Assembly (NCBI GenBank): GCA_937948705.1
Contig: CALECF010000226.1
Coordinates: 1-14,786, forward strand
DNA: 14,786 nucleotides
Direction: 5' to 3'
From: an uncultured Anaerosolibacter sp.
GTDB taxonomy: Bacteria; Bacillota_A; Clostridia; Peptostreptococcales; Thermotaleaceae
The translations under genes and the position numbers were made by a program. The first letter of the stretch is position 1; every line of letters begins with the position of its first letter. Below the pieces are notes generated by a model. It had not been told where the DNA came from and made no database searches. It saw only the letters and a program-made list of their open reading frames with translations. Positions 1 to 13,765 of the stretch are shown here, piece by piece.

Positions 1-1545
1 GCAGTCAATGACTTCCTTTACTCTGGTCATCGTTCCTTCACACTTTTCACACTTTAAATGAATATCATCTACATAAGGTCTGTGAAGCTCTACACTTTCG
101 TCAACATTCTCCACCGCCTGCTCAATCAATTCTTTTCTTGAGCCTACAGAGGTAATATGACCGCACTCACATCTCCAAATATTCAAAGGTGTACCCCAAT
201 ATCGACTTCTAGACAATGCCCAGTCATTCACGTTCTCTAACCAGTTTCCGAATCGCTTCTCCCCCACATAATCTGGATACCAGTTCACAGAATTATTGTT
301 TTCAATGAGCTTATCCTTCAACTTGGTCATCTCAATATACCAGCTTGGCTTCGCATAATACAGAAGCGGTGTGGAACAACGCCAACAGTGAGGATAATTA
401 TGCTCCACCTTTTCTTTCTTAAATAACTTATCTTCCCCATGGAGCCATTTGATGATGTCTACATCGCAATCCATGACAAATTTCCCTTCCCAAGGGGTCG
501 CTGTATATTTTCCTTCTTCATTTACTGGCTGTAATACTGGCAGGTCGTATTTTCTACCTACTTGATAGTCATCTTCACCAAAAGCTGGCGCAATATGAAC
601 GATTCCAGTACCATCACCCGTTGTTACATAGTCTGCAACCGTTACAAAGAAAGCTTTCTTTTCTGGCTTTACAAATGGCATCAACTGCTCATATTCAATA
701 TACTCTAAGTCCTTACCCTTCATTTCCTCCAGTACTTCAAATTCCTCACCTAGTACTTTCTTGGACAAAGTCTTTTCAACAATATATACCTTATCATTCA
801 TCTTCGCTTTGATATAGGTTTCTTCTGGATGCACCGCCAAGGCCACATTGGAAGCCAATGTCCATGGTGTAGTGGTCCATACTAAGAAATATTCATCGAC
901 ATCCTTTCGTTTAAAGGCTGCAATCACCGTGTTGGACTTGATCTCCTTATAGCCCTGGGATACTTCGTGGGAGGCAAGACCTGTCCCACATCGTGGGCAA
1001 TATGGAAGAATCTTATGTCCTTCGTAAATATAACCTTCCTTAAAGAACTTGTCTAAAATCCACCATACCGACTCAATATAGTTATTGTCCAGCGTGATGT
1101 AAGGATTATCCAAATCGATGGCATAACCCATCCGTCTTGTCATTTCTCTCCATAACTTCTCATAGGTGAATACAGATTCTCTACATTTTTCATTGAACTT
1201 ATCGAGGCCATAAGCTTCGATTTCCTGTTTGCTGGATAATTTCAGCTGCTTTTCCACTTCGATTTCTACTGGCAGCCCATGGGTATCCCAACCCGCTTTT
1301 CTCTTCACTTGATATCCTGACATGGTTTTATAACGACATACAGAGTCTTTCAGGGTTCTTGAGATGACATGGTGAATACCAGGTCTTCCATTGGCCGTAG
1401 GCGGGCCCTCATAAAATACAAAAGAATCCCCATTTCCACGATTCTCAATACTCTTTTCTAGAATGTTATTTTGATCCCAAAGATCAGCAACCATGGCCTC
1501 TCGTTTTGCAACGGGTGACTCTGATAGTGGTCTAAACTTTTTCAT
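1..1545 (-). CDS. ileS: Isoleucyl-tRNA synthetase, type 2 (eukaryote-like), N-terminal half, cut by window edge
   Basis: Cytoplasmic class I synthetase that charges tRNA-Ile. Only the first 515 codons are present, about half of the usual 1,030-1,050 residues; the frame is open to the left edge. Seen directly: a Rossmann start with the run YEGPPTANGRPGIHH at residues 45-59, the type 2 continuation KAGWDTHGLPVEIEVEKQ, a Cys pair in YCPRCG and the HCWRCSTPLLYY segment of type 2 enzymes, with an editing-domain-like insertion between the Cys motifs. The KMSKS loop and anticodon domain lie outside the window. The HIGH signature is altered to GIHH (see findings). Three in-frame ATGs (1554, 1551, 1545) crowd an AGGAG at 1556-1560. 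I chose 1545 for its 10-nt spacing, though 1551 (4 nt) is possible. An isoleucine T-box leader lies directly upstream, so expression should follow tRNA-Ile charging. Confidence 0.97.
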   Translation of the reverse strand, partial: MKKFRPLSESPVAKREAMVADLWDQNNILEKSIENRGNGDSFVFYEGPPTANGRPGIHHVISRTLKDSVCRYKTMSGYQVKRKAGWDTHGLPVEIEVEKQLKLSSKQEIEAYGLDKFNEKCRESVFTYEKLWREMTRRMGYAIDLDNPYITLDNNYIESVWWILDKFFKEGYIYEGHKILPYCPRCGTGLASHEVSQGYKEIKSNTVIAAFKRKDVDEYFLVWTTTPWTLASNVALAVHPEETYIKAKMNDKVYIVEKTLSKKVLGEEFEVLEEMKGKDLEYIEYEQLMPFVKPEKKAFFVTVADYVTTGDGTGIVHIAPAFGEDDYQVGRKYDLPVLQPVNEEGKYTATPWEGKFVMDCDVDIIKWLHGEDKLFKKEKVEHNYPHCWRCSTPLLYYAKPSWYIEMTKLKDKLIENNNSVNWYPDYVGEKRFGNWLENVNDWALSRSRYWGTPLNIWRCECGHITSVGSRKELIEQAVENVDESVELHRPYVDDIHLKCEKCEGTMTRVKEVIDC

Positions 1546-1575
1546 CGCCATCATTCTCCTCTCACAAAGTTTTTC

Positions 1576-1614
1576 AAAAATAATAAAGTCCCTAAGTCAT
1601 CATAACTTAGGGAC
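1576..1614 (-). terminator. T-box intrinsic terminator upstream of ileS
   Basis: On the minus strand a 10-bp perfect stem (GTCCCTAAGT paired with ACTTAGGGAC, 7-nt loop, 1588-1614) is followed by a U-rich run TTTATTATTTTTG. It sits between the T-box sequence and the ileS ribosome binding site. In T-box leaders this hairpin forms when tRNA is charged and is replaced by the antiterminator when tRNA is uncharged. Confidence 0.93.
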
Positions 1615-1838
1615 GAATAAACCGCGGTACCACCCTGATTATAAGGCACATCGCCGCCTTATCTCTCAATGCATTTTAACGCATGCCTACGGGATATCTT
1701 ACTACCATTTCAGATATCCGGCTCCAAGGTGATTTTCATAAAAAGCTTCATTATAATCTCTCACTGAATGATTATTTCTCTGTAAACTTCATCTTTTTAT
1801 TACTGTCCTTTTCTTCGCCATTATTCAACTATATTTTA
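1588..1838 (-). promoter_or_regulatory. Isoleucine T-box riboswitch leader of ileS
   Basis: The conserved T-box core AGGGTGGTACCGCGG is present (within 1621-1640), followed by the terminator. Stem I can be drawn from the sequence. AAGG (1807-1810) pairs with CCTT (1726-1729) and ATAAAAAG (1793-1800) with CTTTTTAT (1738-1745). These flank an internal loop of ACAGTA on the 5' side (containing the AGTA typical of specifier loops) and GAAAATCA on the 3' side. The specifier triplet read in that loop is ATC (1731-1733), an isoleucine codon. A second perfect stem, GGATATCT/AGATATCC, lies at 1692-1719, and a third, ATAAGGC/GCCTTAT, at 1641-1662. Uncharged tRNA-Ile should stabilise the antiterminator and switch ileS on. 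The 5' end is estimated from the promoter. Confidence 0.95.
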
Positions 1839-1845
1839 TTATCAT

Positions 1846-1873
1846 TCTATACTTACAGGGTTTCACCTGTCAA
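1846..1873 (-). promoter_or_regulatory. Sigma-A promoter for the ileS T-box leader
   Basis: Perfect -35 TTGACA (1868-1873), 16-bp spacer, -10 TATAGA (1846-1851), all on the minus strand. The predicted start is near 1838, just upstream of stem I. The spacer contains an inverted repeat, ACAGG-N6-CCTGT, sharing bases with the -35. Confidence 0.8.
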
Positions 1874-2157
1874 GGGATATATTGAAAATTCTATCATTCA
1901 CTAAATAATTATACTATGTTTTCATCTAGAATTCAATGTCTTTTGCCATAATCCACATACCTACGGATAAATAAATTGATGGCACTCTCTTCTATATAAA
2001 AGATATTCTTGGAGTGTGGATTGACCTTCCCCTGCAAGCTTCCTTATCATACTTCCTCGTCCCCTTCTGCTCATTCTTCATTGCACATTGGATAATTATG
2101 TAATATTCCCTTAAATCATTCAATGTTCCTTCTTTTATTTTTGAATAATTAATGAAT
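1874..2157. other. Intergenic spacer between mnmA terminator and ileS promoter; nothing recognised
   Basis: AT-rich spacer with no ORF preceded by a credible ribosome binding site on either strand, no tRNA-like fold, and no repeat copy of anything else in the window. One widely spaced 8-bp inverted pair (1950-1957 and 2015-2022) is not convincing. Confidence 0.6.
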
Positions 2158-3335
<1,178 letters not shown>

Positions 3336-3416
3336 TCACTTTTTTAAAAATTGCGCTTTCCTGCCTTTAAGTTCCCCTGTATTAAAAAAGCTATACAGAG
3401 ATTTAAATGGTTATGT

Positions 3417-4304
3417 CTAAGACTTCTTCCCAAATATCTCTTCTTGAATCCTCTTCCCCGTTGGTGTTGCAGCCAGTCCGCCCAGGGCAGTTTCTCGAAG
3501 GGAACAAGGGATAGATTGCCCTACCTTGTACATGGCCTCCACGACTTCATCAAAAGGAATGATACTCTGTATCCCTGCCAAAGCCATATCCGCCGAGATG
3601 TAAGCATTTGCAGCACCTATGGCATTTCGTTTCACACAAGGTGCCTCCACAAGACCCGCAATGGGGTCACAGACTAAGCCTAAAATATTCTTAATGGTCA
3701 TGGCCGCGCCATGCAAAGCTTGCTCTGGTGTTCCACCCATCAATTCTACTAAAGCAGCTGCTGCCATGGCAGCAGCGGACCCTGTTTCAGCTTGGCATCC
3801 ACCTTCTGCACCAGCCACGGTAGCATTTCTGGTGATAATAAATCCAATGGCAGCTGCAGTGAAAAGTGCCTGGACAATTCGCTCATCTTCTATATTGAAA
3901 TCTTGACCCGCGCTGATTAAAACCCCTGGTAATATCCCACTGGAACCTGCTGTAGGTGCAGCCACAATCTGTCCCATAGAAGCATTCACTTCCAATACTG
4001 CCATGGCACTGGCCACAGCCCTATTCATCTGCTCACCCGCCAAAGTTTTGTTCGTTTCGAAGTAATTACGCAACCTTTTGGCATCGCCTCCCACAAGACC
4101 GCTCACAGATTTTATATCCTCCTGTAAGCCTCTTTCAATGGCGTTTTTCATAATTGCTAGATTGCCCCTCATATATTCCATAACTTCTTCTCTATCTCTT
4201 CCAGAAATATAGGTTTCTCTTTCAACCATGACTTCCCATATTGGCTTTTCTTCTCTCTGGCACCGTTCTAATAAATCCCTGCCATTCACAAAATCTTTGT
4301 TCAT
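3417..4304 (-). CDS. sdaAA: L-serine dehydratase (ammonia-lyase), iron-sulfur-dependent, alpha subunit
   Basis: Catalytic subunit of the two-subunit 4Fe-4S L-serine dehydratase, which converts L-serine to pyruvate and ammonia in the cytoplasm. At 295 residues it is full length for the separate alpha chain. Seen: the glycine-rich APTAGSSGILPG segment near 117-127 and three conserved Cys, Cys170 in AGAEGGCQAETG, Cys212 in GLVCDPIAG and Cys223 in VEAPCVKRNAIGAANA. These are the expected cluster ligands of the family. The start ATG (4302-4304) follows AGAGGTGAT at good spacing. It lies 15 bp after sdaAB, whose product is the partner subunit, so the two form an operon. Confidence 0.97.
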   Translation of the reverse strand: MNKDFVNGRDLLERCQREEKPIWEVMVERETYISGRDREEVMEYMRGNLAIMKNAIERGLQEDIKSVSGLVGGDAKRLRNYFETNKTLAGEQMNRAVASAMAVLEVNASMGQIVAAPTAGSSGILPGVLISAGQDFNIEDERIVQALFTAAAIGFIITRNATVAGAEGGCQAETGSAAAMAAAALVELMGGTPEQALHGAAMTIKNILGLVCDPIAGLVEAPCVKRNAIGAANAYISADMALAGIQSIIPFDEVVEAMYKVGQSIPCSLRETALGGLAATPTGKRIQEEIFGKKS

Positions 4305-4319
4305 AGAATCACCTCTTTC

Positions 4320-4997
4320 CTATAGTCCTTCCACTAAGTATACATGAAGAATTTCATCTGCGAGATTTCGGATACCCTCTAGAACTTCTTTGGGTACATC
4401 GTTATCTATCTCAATAATCATGAATGCGTCCTCGCCCTTTCTTTGTCGAAACACCTTCATAAATGCAATATTAATTTTAAATTCATCCATGATGTGGGTC
4501 ACATTTGCAACGACCCCTGGCTTGTCCATATGTCGAATAATAATGGTAGGATACTCTCCTGTAAATTCTATGGCCAATCCGTTAATTTCTGTAACAAGGA
4601 TGTTTCCGCCGCCGATGGAAGCCCCTACAATTTCCGATTGTTGGCCTTCTCCATTGGTGGTAATGATTTTTACTGTGTTGGGATGGGAGACCTCATCCTC
4701 CGAAAGAATAAAACGATAGGTCAAACCCTCTTTCAATGCTATTTCCATAGATTTGCTTAACCTTTCATCGTCGGGATCCATACCTAATACACCAGCCACT
4801 AAGGCACGATCTGTCCCGTGTCCTCTATAGGTTTGCGCAAAAGAGCCATACAAAATAAACATGACCTCCTGAATTCCTTTACCACCTATTTTTCTAGCAA
4901 CCTTTCCCAACCGTGCTGCGCCAGCCGTATGGGAGCTTGATGGACCCACCATCCGAGGGCCGATAATATCAAAGGCACTATAGTTTTTTATCTGCAT
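4320..4997 (-). CDS. sdaAB: L-serine dehydratase, iron-sulfur-dependent, beta subunit
   Basis: Regulatory/structural partner of SdaAA. The N-terminal half carries the SDH beta signature (SAFDIIGPRMVGPSSSHTAGAARLGK written in pieces: FDIIGPRMVGPSSSHTAGA near 9-27), and the last ~75 residues form an ACT-type domain (IIIRHMDKPGVVANVTHIM). It is 225 residues from the ATG at 4997. That start is 12 nt from AGGAG (5010-5014) and has a second purine run AAGGGA next to it. A TTG at 5009 touches the Shine-Dalgarno and is an unlikely start. The 125-137 bp upstream to the FUSC gene holds no clear terminator but two short dyads (see next entry). Confidence 0.96.
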   Translation of the reverse strand: MQIKNYSAFDIIGPRMVGPSSSHTAGAARLGKVARKIGGKGIQEVMFILYGSFAQTYRGHGTDRALVAGVLGMDPDDERLSKSMEIALKEGLTYRFILSEDEVSHPNTVKIITTNGEGQQSEIVGASIGGGNILVTEINGLAIEFTGEYPTIIIRHMDKPGVVANVTHIMDEFKINIAFMKVFRQRKGEDAFMIIEIDNDVPKEVLEGIRNLADEILHVYLVEGL

Positions 4998-5026
4998 TCC
5001 CTTACCCAACTCCTTTCTATATCCTA

Positions 5027-5062
5027 AACAATATTGTTATGACACCATATGGATACCCATAT
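5027..5062. promoter_or_regulatory. Two adjacent dyads upstream of sdaAB, possible operator or leader structure
   Basis: A 12-bp perfect palindrome AACAATATTGTT (5027-5038) lies 8 bp from an inverted repeat ATATGG-ATAC-CCATAT (5047-5062), both just upstream of the sdaAB ribosome binding site. No confident promoter hexamers were found in the gap. The regulatory role is inference only. Confidence 0.3.
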
Positions 5063-5134
5063 CTATGCTGCCCATTCTCAGTCCACAAATTTATCGTTGA
5101 TCACATCTATAGAATCACCTTATGCACCAAAGCC

Positions 5135-6199
5135 TTATATTTTTTTCATATGACATTCTAAAGATTCAACCAATGCCTCCATTTCTGACAAGCTCTCAAG
5201 GATTCTTGATTGTTTATTATTTTCTATTTTATCTTTTTTAACCCCCTCTTTTTCAAAACTAGTCCTTTTCTCTTCTAGCTGAAAACCATTAGCCAATGTC
5301 CTTAGACGAATGATTATGTTTTCAAAACCCACAAATATCTTACGTTGTTGAACAAGAATCAATTCCCATTCTCCCTTTTGCCAGATCAAGCGAAGGTTTA
5401 TATCATAATTCAAATGACAAATGCTGCGGAGCGCCATAACAATTTCCACCAGCCCTTTCATTTCTCCATCCTTGCTCCCTAAATATCTACTTTTTATCCT
5501 CTTTTCTTCTTCTATATCCTTTAGAAATCCATATACCCAATCAATGTTCTTAAAAGTCCGAGACATGGCCTTTTGATTTTCCTCTAATAGTAAGGGGTCA
5601 TTGATTGTCAATGCATCTAGTGTTTCTTCCATATGGGAGATGAGGGATTTCATCAGAAATGCAATCCGTTTATAGGTCATCTTCCGGTAGGAGATAAAGG
5701 AAAATAATAGATTAAATAGAATTGCAATGATGATACCTGTTCCCAAAGCCATGAGTCTTAGCTGAATTGTCAATAATATACTAGGTTCTCCCGTTCCTGT
5801 CAGTTGAACATATTGCGTCATATAGATAGATGTAAAAATTGCAACGGGAGACACTTCTCTCCAGTTAATTTTTAAGCAAACATAAAGGGTAAAAGCTACT
5901 GACAAAGAGATGGTGATGATATGTATACCAAATATACTAATGATTACCGCCGTTGAAAGGGCACCAAGAATCGTGGCGTACATCTGACTCCATCCATGAC
6001 GAATTCCCGTTAACGTAACAGGTTCAAGGGTCAACATCAATCCAAAAAGTACAGAAATCATATCTTTATTCAAAATATCACTTCTAGAAGCCATGGCATA
6101 AGCTGTTGCTACTGCTAAAAATGACTTCAATATATATGTGGTAGAATCTAGTAAATCCGCTTCCTTTTGAAATCGAAATAAATCTATAAACTTCCTCAT
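5135..6199 (-). CDS. FUSC / aromatic acid exporter (ArAE)-like membrane protein
   Basis: Predicted inner-membrane protein of 354 residues. The first ~175 residues hold about six hydrophobic segments (roughly 22-40, 48-66, 73-92, 95-111, 117-134, 150-172) with the family-like elements LEPVTLTGIRHGWSQ and LGALSTAVIISIFG. The remainder is charged, helical and cytoplasmic-looking, ending in a Lys/Glu-rich tail. This half-size plan (one membrane bundle plus a soluble helical domain) matches the ArAE_1/DUF939 group of Firmicutes. The substrate is unknown. ATGs at 6202 and 6199 follow GGAGG by 3 and 6 nt; I chose 6199. It is upstream of sdaAB-sdaAA-mnmA in the same direction with no visible terminator in the 137-bp gap. 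A role in amino- or organic-acid export would fit but is not shown. Confidence 0.82.
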   Translation of the reverse strand: MRKFIDLFRFQKEADLLDSTTYILKSFLAVATAYAMASRSDILNKDMISVLFGLMLTLEPVTLTGIRHGWSQMYATILGALSTAVIISIFGIHIITISLSVAFTLYVCLKINWREVSPVAIFTSIYMTQYVQLTGTGEPSILLTIQLRLMALGTGIIIAILFNLLFSFISYRKMTYKRIAFLMKSLISHMEETLDALTINDPLLLEENQKAMSRTFKNIDWVYGFLKDIEEEKRIKSRYLGSKDGEMKGLVEIVMALRSICHLNYDINLRLIWQKGEWELILVQQRKIFVGFENIIIRLRTLANGFQLEEKRTSFEKEGVKKDKIENNKQSRILESLSEMEALVESLECHMKKI

Positions 6200-6308
6200 C
6201 ATCTTCCTCCAGATCTACCTTATACCCTTATAGGGCAGTGCCTCATTTTACAACCTTTATATAATAACACAAATATTCAATATAGAATAGCGGTGTAAAA
6301 TTGCTAAA

Positions 6309-6334: not shown

Positions 6335-6425
6335 TTCGCTAGGGGAACCTAGTTCCCCTTCGACGGCTGCTAAGCAGCCTGAGCACCCCTCTGAATACGG
6401 CATGGGAATTCTTCCCCTGCACCCC
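6316..6425. repeat. GC-rich multi-hairpin intergenic element, unidentified
   Basis: About 110 bp of GC-rich sequence stands out in an AT-rich spacer. Four hairpins occur in series: GCATC-TGAC-GATGC (6321-6334), AGGGGAAC-CTA-GTTCCCCT (6341-6359), GGCTGC-TAA-GCAGCC (6365-6379) and GGGAA-TTC-TTCCC (6404-6416). They are separated by short linkers such as TTCGCT and TCGAC, and GCACCCCT occurs at both ends of the last section (6383-6390, 6419-6426). No ORF runs through it with a ribosome binding site. It could be a dispersed REP/BIME- or MITE-like repeat, or a structured small RNA read on the minus strand and ending in the terminator above. Only one copy is in this window, so 'repeat' is inferred from the form. 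Confidence 0.55.
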
Positions 6426-6516
6426 TTATTTTTTATTGTAAAATTTTACAAAATTTTTATAAACCTTATCCTTACTGTAATTGACATCAGTCAAAATTTA
6501 TACTCTCTTATACAAT

Positions 6517-7251: not shown

Positions 7252-7299
7252 AAACACAAAAGGAGCACCTCTTTGAAATGAAGTGCTCCCTTTGTGTTT
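7252..7299 (-). terminator. glnS intrinsic terminator, overlapping the stop codon
   Basis: Arms AAACACAAA-A-GGAGCAC (7252-7268) and GTGCTCC-C-TTTGTGTTT (7283-7299) pair over 16 bp with one A/C mismatch and a 14-nt loop. On the minus strand the 3' side reads TTTTGTGTTTTATAAATC. The TAA stop of glnS (7299-7301) touches the first bases of the hairpin. Confidence 0.88.
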
Positions 7300-9041
7300 T
7301 ATTGATTTTTCACTTTATCCCAAGAACTCTTTAAGGTTACGATTCTGTTGAATACTGGTGCTCCTAACACCGAAAGCTTTGTATCGACACTAAAGTATCC
7401 ATGTCTTAAGAACTGATACCTAGTGCCTGGATCTGCATTGGCTACAGATGGCTCGATATAGCATTCAGATAATACTTCAAGGGAATTTGGATTTAATTTG
7501 CTATTCGGATCCGTATTTTCTTCTGTCTCTGACTCTTCCTTATCAATAACAAGATAATCATACAAACGGACCTCTGACTTTACAGCATGACCAGCTGAAA
7601 CCCAATGGAGGGTTCCTTTTACTTTTCTGCCTGCAAAGCCAGTACCACTCTTCGTTTCAGGGTCATAGGTGCAACGAAGCTCAATGATTTCTCCCGTCTG
7701 TTCATCCTTGACCACTTCTTCACATTTGATGAAATATGCGTTCTTCAGACGTACTTCCTGACCTGGTGCCAATCGGAAAAATTTCTTTGGAGGTTCTTCC
7801 ATAAAATCCTCCTGCTCAATATATATCACTCTAGAAAAAGGTATTTGACGGGTACCCATCTCAATATTTTCAGGATTATTTTCAGCATCAAGCATTTCTA
7901 CCTGACCTTCAGGATAGTTGGTAATAACCACCTTCAAGGGTTTCAGCACCGCCATGATGGTAGGCACCTTCATCTTTAGGTCTTCGCGGATACAGTGCTC
8001 CAAAAGGCCAATCTCAACCTTGCTGTTGCTCTTAGATATTCCTATCAAATCACAGAATTTACGAATAGATTCTGGGGTATAACCTCTTCGTCTCAGCCCG
8101 GAAATCGTAGGCATTCTAGGATCATCCCATCCATCTACATAATTCTCTTCCACAAGCTTACGAAGATATCGCTTACCCATGATGGTATTGGTAAGGTTCA
8201 GCTTTGCAAACTCAATCTGCTTTGGCGGCGCTTCGAAATTTAGTTCCTTCAAAGGCCAATCATACAACGGTCGATGGTCTTCAAACTCTAGTGTACATAC
8301 AGAGTGAGTAATTTTCTCCATGGCATCTGAGATGGGATGGGCATAGTCATACATTGGATAAATGCACCATGCATCGCCAGTTCGATGATGGGTTACAAAG
8401 GCAATCCGATATAAGGCAGGATCTCTCATGTTGAGGTTTGGTGATGCCATATCTATTTTTGCCCGAAGTACCCGGGAACCTTCTTTAAATTCTCCATTTT
8501 TCATGCGTTGGAATAGATCTAAATTTTCTTCAACAGAGCGGTCACGATAGGGACTTTCCTTCCCTGGTTCTGTAAAAGACCCTCTATAGGCCTTCATTTC
8601 ATCTGGGCTTAAGTCACAAACATATGCTTTTCCATCTTTAATTAATTGTACAGCATATTGGTATAAATCCTCAAAGTAATCGGAAGCATAGTACTCACGA
8701 TCCTCCCAATCAAATCCTAACCACTTAACATCCCTCTTGATAGAATCTACATATTCTACATCTTCCTTAATTGGGTTGGTATCATCAAAGCGCAGGTTAC
8801 ATAACCCTCCGTTTTGTGCTGCAAGACCAAAGTTTAAGCAGATGGACTTGGCATGTCCTATGTGAAGGTAGCCATTTGGCTCTGGGGGAAATCGGGTATG
8901 TACTCTGTTTCCATATACACCCTCCGCGTTATCTGTATTAATGATGTTCTGAATAAAATTGGTCGATTGATATGAATCTGAGGTAGATTCAGCTTCATTT
9001 TTAGGTTGATCTATATCTAACCTTTCGTTCTCATGTGTCAT
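7299..9041 (-). CDS. glnS: Glutaminyl-tRNA synthetase
   Basis: Class I synthetase charging tRNA-Gln directly, cytoplasmic. At 580 residues it is slightly longer than the E. coli enzyme because of a polar N-terminal extension of about 45 residues. Seen: [17 protein letters not shown] with HIGH at 60-63, the GlnRS-type [27 protein letters not shown] (near 205-223), [20 protein letters not shown] (about 305-324), and the two-barrel anticodon domain in the C-terminal 240 residues ([33 protein letters not shown]). These mark GlnRS rather than GluRS. The KMSKS-equivalent loop reads IMGKR (288-291) where VMSKR is usual (see findings). The start ATG follows AAGGAGG at 10 nt. It is a single-gene unit with its own promoter and terminator. 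Confidence 0.97.
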
Positions 9042-13117: not shown

Positions 13118-13210
13118 GGTTCTCGTCTCCTTTATATTCCCTATAAAATGTTAATTTTCTTATCCTTTGGGCATACTACATATAAAACTCATAATCAGGG
13201 ATGGTTTAGT

Positions 13211-13765
13211 ATGGATATGATAGGATCAAAATTTAAATTAAACAATGATCAATTAACTTATCTCCACAGTATTTTAAACAATGGTGCATTGCTTCAACAA
13301 GGAAGCAATGGCCTTTCTACTATTACTGAAGATCTACAACTCATTCATTTGTCCCTAAAGGCAAAGCTAGAAAAAAAAATACTTAAACACCAAAAATCCT
13401 ACATTATTCAATTCAATGTTTTTGAGATTCTTTATATTCAAACCATGTTAGAGTTCCTTATTCCCCATTTGAGTACTAGGTCTGCAGAATACCAAGGGTT
13501 TTTGTTTGATCATAAGAATGAGTTAAGTCCCAAACACTTCATGGAAATCAAAGAAGTCCATCGAGGTATCTTCTCCTTCTATCACGCTATGTGTAAGCTT
13601 ATGGACAAAATCAAGCAACTGAAAGCTTATTATGAAAAAGACTTCTATGAAATCATGGATATGTCTTTAGAACAAAGGATCAATGCCCTACTACAAATCG
13701 ATGGACATCTTGAAAAAAAAGCAAAAGAAGGATCCAATGTGATCTATATACACACACAAGTATAA
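13211..13765 (+). CDS. Hypothetical helical protein, 184 residues
   Basis: No family recognised. The predicted protein is mostly helical, with mixed charge and no signal peptide or membrane span: hydrophobic-helix pieces such as VFEILYIQTMLEFLIPHL, then KHFMEIKEVHRGIFSFYHAM and long Lys/Glu helices to the C-terminus. The frame is open to an ATG at 13148, but that has no ribosome binding site. The ATG at 13211 follows AGGGATGG (weak) and gives an MDMIGSKF start, which I prefer. It is divergent from cca, with only 93 bp between the two starts. A bidirectional terminator follows. Base use is AT-rich like the spacers. Confidence 0.75.
   Translation: MDMIGSKFKLNNDQLTYLHSILNNGALLQQGSNGLSTITEDLQLIHLSLKAKLEKKILKHQKSYIIQFNVFEILYIQTMLEFLIPHLSTRSAEYQGFLFDHKNELSPKHFMEIKEVHRGIFSFYHAMCKLMDKIKQLKAYYEKDFYEIMDMSLEQRINALLQIDGHLEKKAKEGSNVIYIHTQV

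Follow-up and report, generated by a model that had tools for sequence, protein, structure and literature searches.

A natural GXHH class I signature in a T-box-led clostridial type 2 isoleucyl-tRNA synthetase and its close relatives

The exchange of the first and third residues of the class I signature HXGH (the HIGH motif), which gives G/AXHH, was described for type 2 isoleucyl-tRNA synthetases (IleRS) by Brkic et al. 2023 (PMC10485003), where the swap itself, a mM-range Ki for mupirocin, the retention of catalysis and the structural basis are already published. Enzymes of this kind are named there from D. radiodurans (ALHH) and S. griseus. Table 1 of that paper lists a mupirocin Ki of 6.6 mM for DrIleRS2, whose ALHH is natural, and a shift in Ki of about 200- to 800-fold whichever way the motif is exchanged. 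The nitrogen of the third-position His is reported to occupy the spot normally taken by that of the first His, and modelling indicates that this His would clash with mupirocin. When two HXGH enzymes were given GVHH in the laboratory, kcat or KM worsened by up to 10-fold, and the natural ALHH enzyme is given a catalytic efficiency like that of HXGH enzymes. The main text of PMC10485003 holds neither Firmicutes nor Bacillota nor any word beginning with Clostridi-.

The stretch of DNA analysed here (the window; 14,786 nucleotides from an uncultured Anaerosolibacter sp.) begins inside an ileS gene read on the minus strand. The features of this gene and its leader are:

1..1554, minus strand: ileS, type 2 isoleucyl-tRNA synthetase, first 518 codons (open reading frame, TIGR00392 and solved-structure matches)
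1369..1380, minus strand: class I signature in the swapped form GIHH, GGT ATT CAC CAT (translation)
1606..1824, minus strand: T-box leader, RF00230, 145 bits (RNA family match)
1731..1733, minus strand: ATC, an isoleucine codon, in the T-box (read from GAAAATCACC)

The reverse complement of window positions 1369-1380 is GGTATTCACCAT, which translates as GIHH in the sequence context EGPPTANGRPGIHHVISRTLKD; read from 1380 to 1369 on the minus strand, the codons GGT ATT CAC CAT lie inside EGPPTANGRPGIHH (also EGPPTANGRPGIHHVI). The preliminary description had named GIHH at this very place, and both motif and coordinates proved exact on re-translation. The window IleRS has Gly as the first and His as the third motif residue, as the definition of G/AXHH demands. 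It shares the swap of residues 1 and 3 with the G/AXHH enzymes of PMC10485003 and differs from those described there in reading GIHH, in being clostridial and in being known here from its sequence alone. The reading frame of 518 amino acids is open at window base 1, and KMSKS and the C-terminal part lie beyond the window edge. The match to NCBIfam TIGR00392 (ileS) has an E-value of 1e-178 and scores 596.3 bits where the cut-off is 621.4, a shortfall to be expected of a gene that the window start cuts in half.

By its sequence relationships the window enzyme is a type 2 IleRS. The top solved relatives are 8c8w, 8c8u, 8c8v and 8c9d (639 to 655 bits), chains of P. megaterium IleRS2 (PmIleRS2) according to the data section of PMC10485003, which gives 8c9e and 8c9f as PmIleRS1. 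The assignment follows from the P. megaterium IleRS2 chains (8c8w, 655 bits; 8c8u, 644 bits) scoring far above the IleRS1 chains 8c9e and 8c9f (268 to 277 bits); 1ffy scores 282 bits. In the tree described below, 53 type 2 rows including the window are split from six type 1 rows with a support of 100. Pairwise alignment at the motif puts GVHH of 8c8w and HVGH of 8c8u opposite GIHH. P. megaterium IleRS2 (8c8u, 8c8v) is a type 2 enzyme and the nearest solved relative by sequence, but its natural motif is HVGH, GVHH having been made in the laboratory to give 8c8w, whereas GIHH of the window is natural.

The T-box leader lies about 50 bases ahead of the ileS start codon, and a T-box stands ahead of ileS in all 12 related loci scanned. 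The ATC at 1733-1731 occupies the place expected for the specifier from T-box anatomy; ATC recurs at the matching place in 12/12 loci, the window and 11 of these having been read by script and L012 by eye. With such a leader, the gene is regulated in the way expected of a housekeeping synthetase, and the earlier view of a T-box-controlled ileS holds. A second T-box was observed in Lutispora saccharofermentans (L016, 2610-2859, plus strand), about 2 kb upstream of the T-box of ileS.

Copy number was counted in the genomes behind 19 of 80 related loci, every candidate being scored. Each of the 19 has a single match over the IleRS cut-off of 621.4 bits, and the next-best match to the profile, among the matches listed, reaches about 348 bits; from their lengths and profile ranges, the matches below the cut-off would be other class I synthetases. 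With one IleRS over the cut-off in 19/19 relatives, the source organism would probably lack a second ileS. When 119 genomes were drawn evenly from the phylum to which the nearest relative (G001) belongs, each likewise gave one IleRS match at E <= 1e-150, at most seven candidates per genome having been scored.

These counts bear on the possibility that the window holds an acquired resistance ileS, like mupA or mupB, beside a housekeeping copy. MupA and MupB are acquired resistance genes whose products are, like the window protein, type 2 IleRS. The window protein does match the NCBIfam models for MupA (574.2 bits) and MupB (582 bits), which any type 2 IleRS is expected to do, but these scores, for a protein cut at 518 amino acids, are far under the 1900-bit cut-off. 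An acquired copy is further disfavoured by the one over-cut-off IleRS in each of the 19 genomes, by the T-box ahead of ileS in all 12 loci and by a neighbourhood kept against the related locus L001, in which window positions 1-1963 align at 87% and 2156-6222 at 81% DNA identity. We regard acquisition as very improbable; the preliminary description had considered this probably the housekeeping copy, and the relatives, with their single IleRS and their T-box, support it.

The species-genome scan returned 447 stretches encoding relatives, of which the best 80 were analysed; the nearest are two Anaerosolibacter records with 94% protein identity. Over the first 518 residues, Anaerosolibacter carboniphilus DSM 103526 shares 94% identity with the window enzyme, and these relationships, with the DNA alignment to L001, point to Anaerosolibacter or close kin as the source. 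All of these best 80 of 447 carry GXHH (75 GIHH, 3 GVHH and 2 GLHH), spelled with several different codons, and intermediates such as HXHH or GXGH occur in none of them. KMSKS was matched in 78 of the 80, the misses being L065 and L067 (a 464-amino-acid piece). GXHH is therefore the rule in the close relatives that were examined. A sequencing or assembly error in an ordinary HIGH is ruled out for the lineage because the 80 GXHH loci come from other records and differ in their codons; for the window itself we give it a negligible chance. The motif of the window is also less unusual than first thought, because it is the rule among close relatives and its mechanism is already in print.

Farther out, IleRS of the 119-genome draw were called type 2 by GPPTAN and type 1 by GPPYAN or GPPFAN; the motif was read directly in 117 genomes and taken from L001 and L021 for G001 and G013. 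Type 2 enzymes with GXHH were found in 11 genomes and with HXGH in 17, and type 1 enzymes with HXGH in 52 and with HXGT in 39. All 11 GXHH enzymes are type 2, and none of the 91 type 1 enzymes of the draw has GXHH, which is absent from type 1 enzymes also in PMC10485003. Intermediates between HXGH and GXHH, such as HXHH or GXGH, are missing from all 28 type 2 enzymes that the 119 genomes hold.

A tree of 59 rows and 507 columns was built with the motif masked, by a quick method without bootstraps. It places 36 GXHH rows including the window on one side of a branch and 17 type 2 HXGH rows with 6 type 1 rows outside it; the SH-aLRT of this branch is 92, under the tool's mark of 95, and four rows have long end branches. 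We picked 26 of the GXHH rows from the 80 all-GXHH loci, and the six type 1 rows from 91. The simplest reading of this topology would be a single origin of GXHH among the sampled clostridial type 2 enzymes, followed by descent. Over all bacteria, at least two origins of GXHH were inferred by Brkic et al. 2023 (PMC10485003).

Our preferred explanation, of which we are highly confident, is that an Anaerosolibacter-like clostridium relies on this T-box-controlled type 2 IleRS as its only, housekeeping copy, with a natural GXHH inherited in a clostridial lineage, and that this enzyme should be hyper-resistant to mupirocin. The His at position 3 would take the catalytic role of the usual His at position 1, and the shifted motif of the type 2 active site would make the swap tolerable there. 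This His would also clash with mupirocin, making the enzyme hyper-resistant, and GXHH would have come from an ancestor of a clostridial GXHH lineage, with no recent acquisition. All observations on the window IleRS fit the account of Brkic et al., and the earlier statement that published work ties this swap in type 2 IleRS to extreme mupirocin resistance in a still active enzyme agrees with PMC10485003. Activity of the window enzyme, and mupirocin resistance of the enzyme and its organism, are thus predicted by analogy. A catalytic cost of GXHH is possible, given the losses of up to 10-fold in the laboratory GVHH variants.

Why GXHH persists may be seen differently. It could be an ancient solution for the active site that descent has preserved, with resistance as a by-product; this is compatible with the preferred explanation and differs from it only on the reason for persistence. 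GXHH in 80/80 related loci (the best 80 of 447) and in one branch of the tree speaks for it, as does the natural ALHH enzyme being as efficient as HXGH enzymes (PMC10485003), but the same paper presumes selection by natural mupirocin, and we lean somewhat away from the by-product view. With similar reserve we put forward, as a tentative proposal, that GXHH had a single origin, at the root of a large branch of clostridia in which IleRS2 is the sole housekeeping enzyme, and has remained fixed irrespective of mupirocin. If this were true, a broad group of anaerobes would be intrinsically hyper-resistant, and the swapped motif would be an alternative catalytic solution and not a resistance trait.

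What is added here to a published mechanism, itself unchanged, is GXHH as the rule in close relatives and as the signature of the only over-cut-off IleRS in 19 of their genomes. A departure from the class I signature that was already in print is thereby extended to a clostridial lineage where it is the rule in the relatives examined, with the indication that a swapped HIGH can serve in what is apparently the only IleRS of a cell. On the preferred explanation, intrinsic mupirocin tolerance is predicted for the clostridial GXHH lineage. Weak outside support for clostridial mupirocin tolerance comes from a primate study (PMC8316555), in which clostridial rods or sarcina-like cells were isolated on medium with 100 mg/L mupirocin.

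A separate observation concerns the type 1 enzymes. In 39 of the 91 from the 119-genome draw the fourth residue of HIGH is Thr instead of His (HXGT): L091, L108, L113, L114, L120 and 34 loci between L123 and L204. Each of these genomes has one IleRS match at E <= 1e-150, with at most seven candidates scored. HXGT is spread over the type 1 tree with 19 changes, although this is a weak tree of 160 columns whose well-supported branches force only two. All type 1 enzymes of the set in PMC10485003 have HXGH, and a change of the fourth-position His is mentioned there only for laboratory-selected S. aureus; a search of open-licence PMC text found no report of HXGT in synthetases. This variant is possibly more interesting than the GXHH finding.

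Elsewhere in the window, a search against a defence-gene library gave no match, and an open reading frame of 205 amino acids (13148-13765, plus strand) has no Pfam match at E <= 0.001. Positions 7299-9041 of the minus strand encode a class I synthetase with an E/Q catalytic domain and both anticodon-binding domains; judging from these domains, our guess is that the product is probably GlnRS rather than GluRS. Upstream of ileS, at 6353-6434 on the minus strand, lies a Clostridiales-2 sRNA (RF02937, 86.6 bits), and copies of it in L001 (11194-11275) and L002 (11102-11183) are found downstream of the ileS match, at a distance of some 4.6 kb, a place that does not correspond to that in the window.
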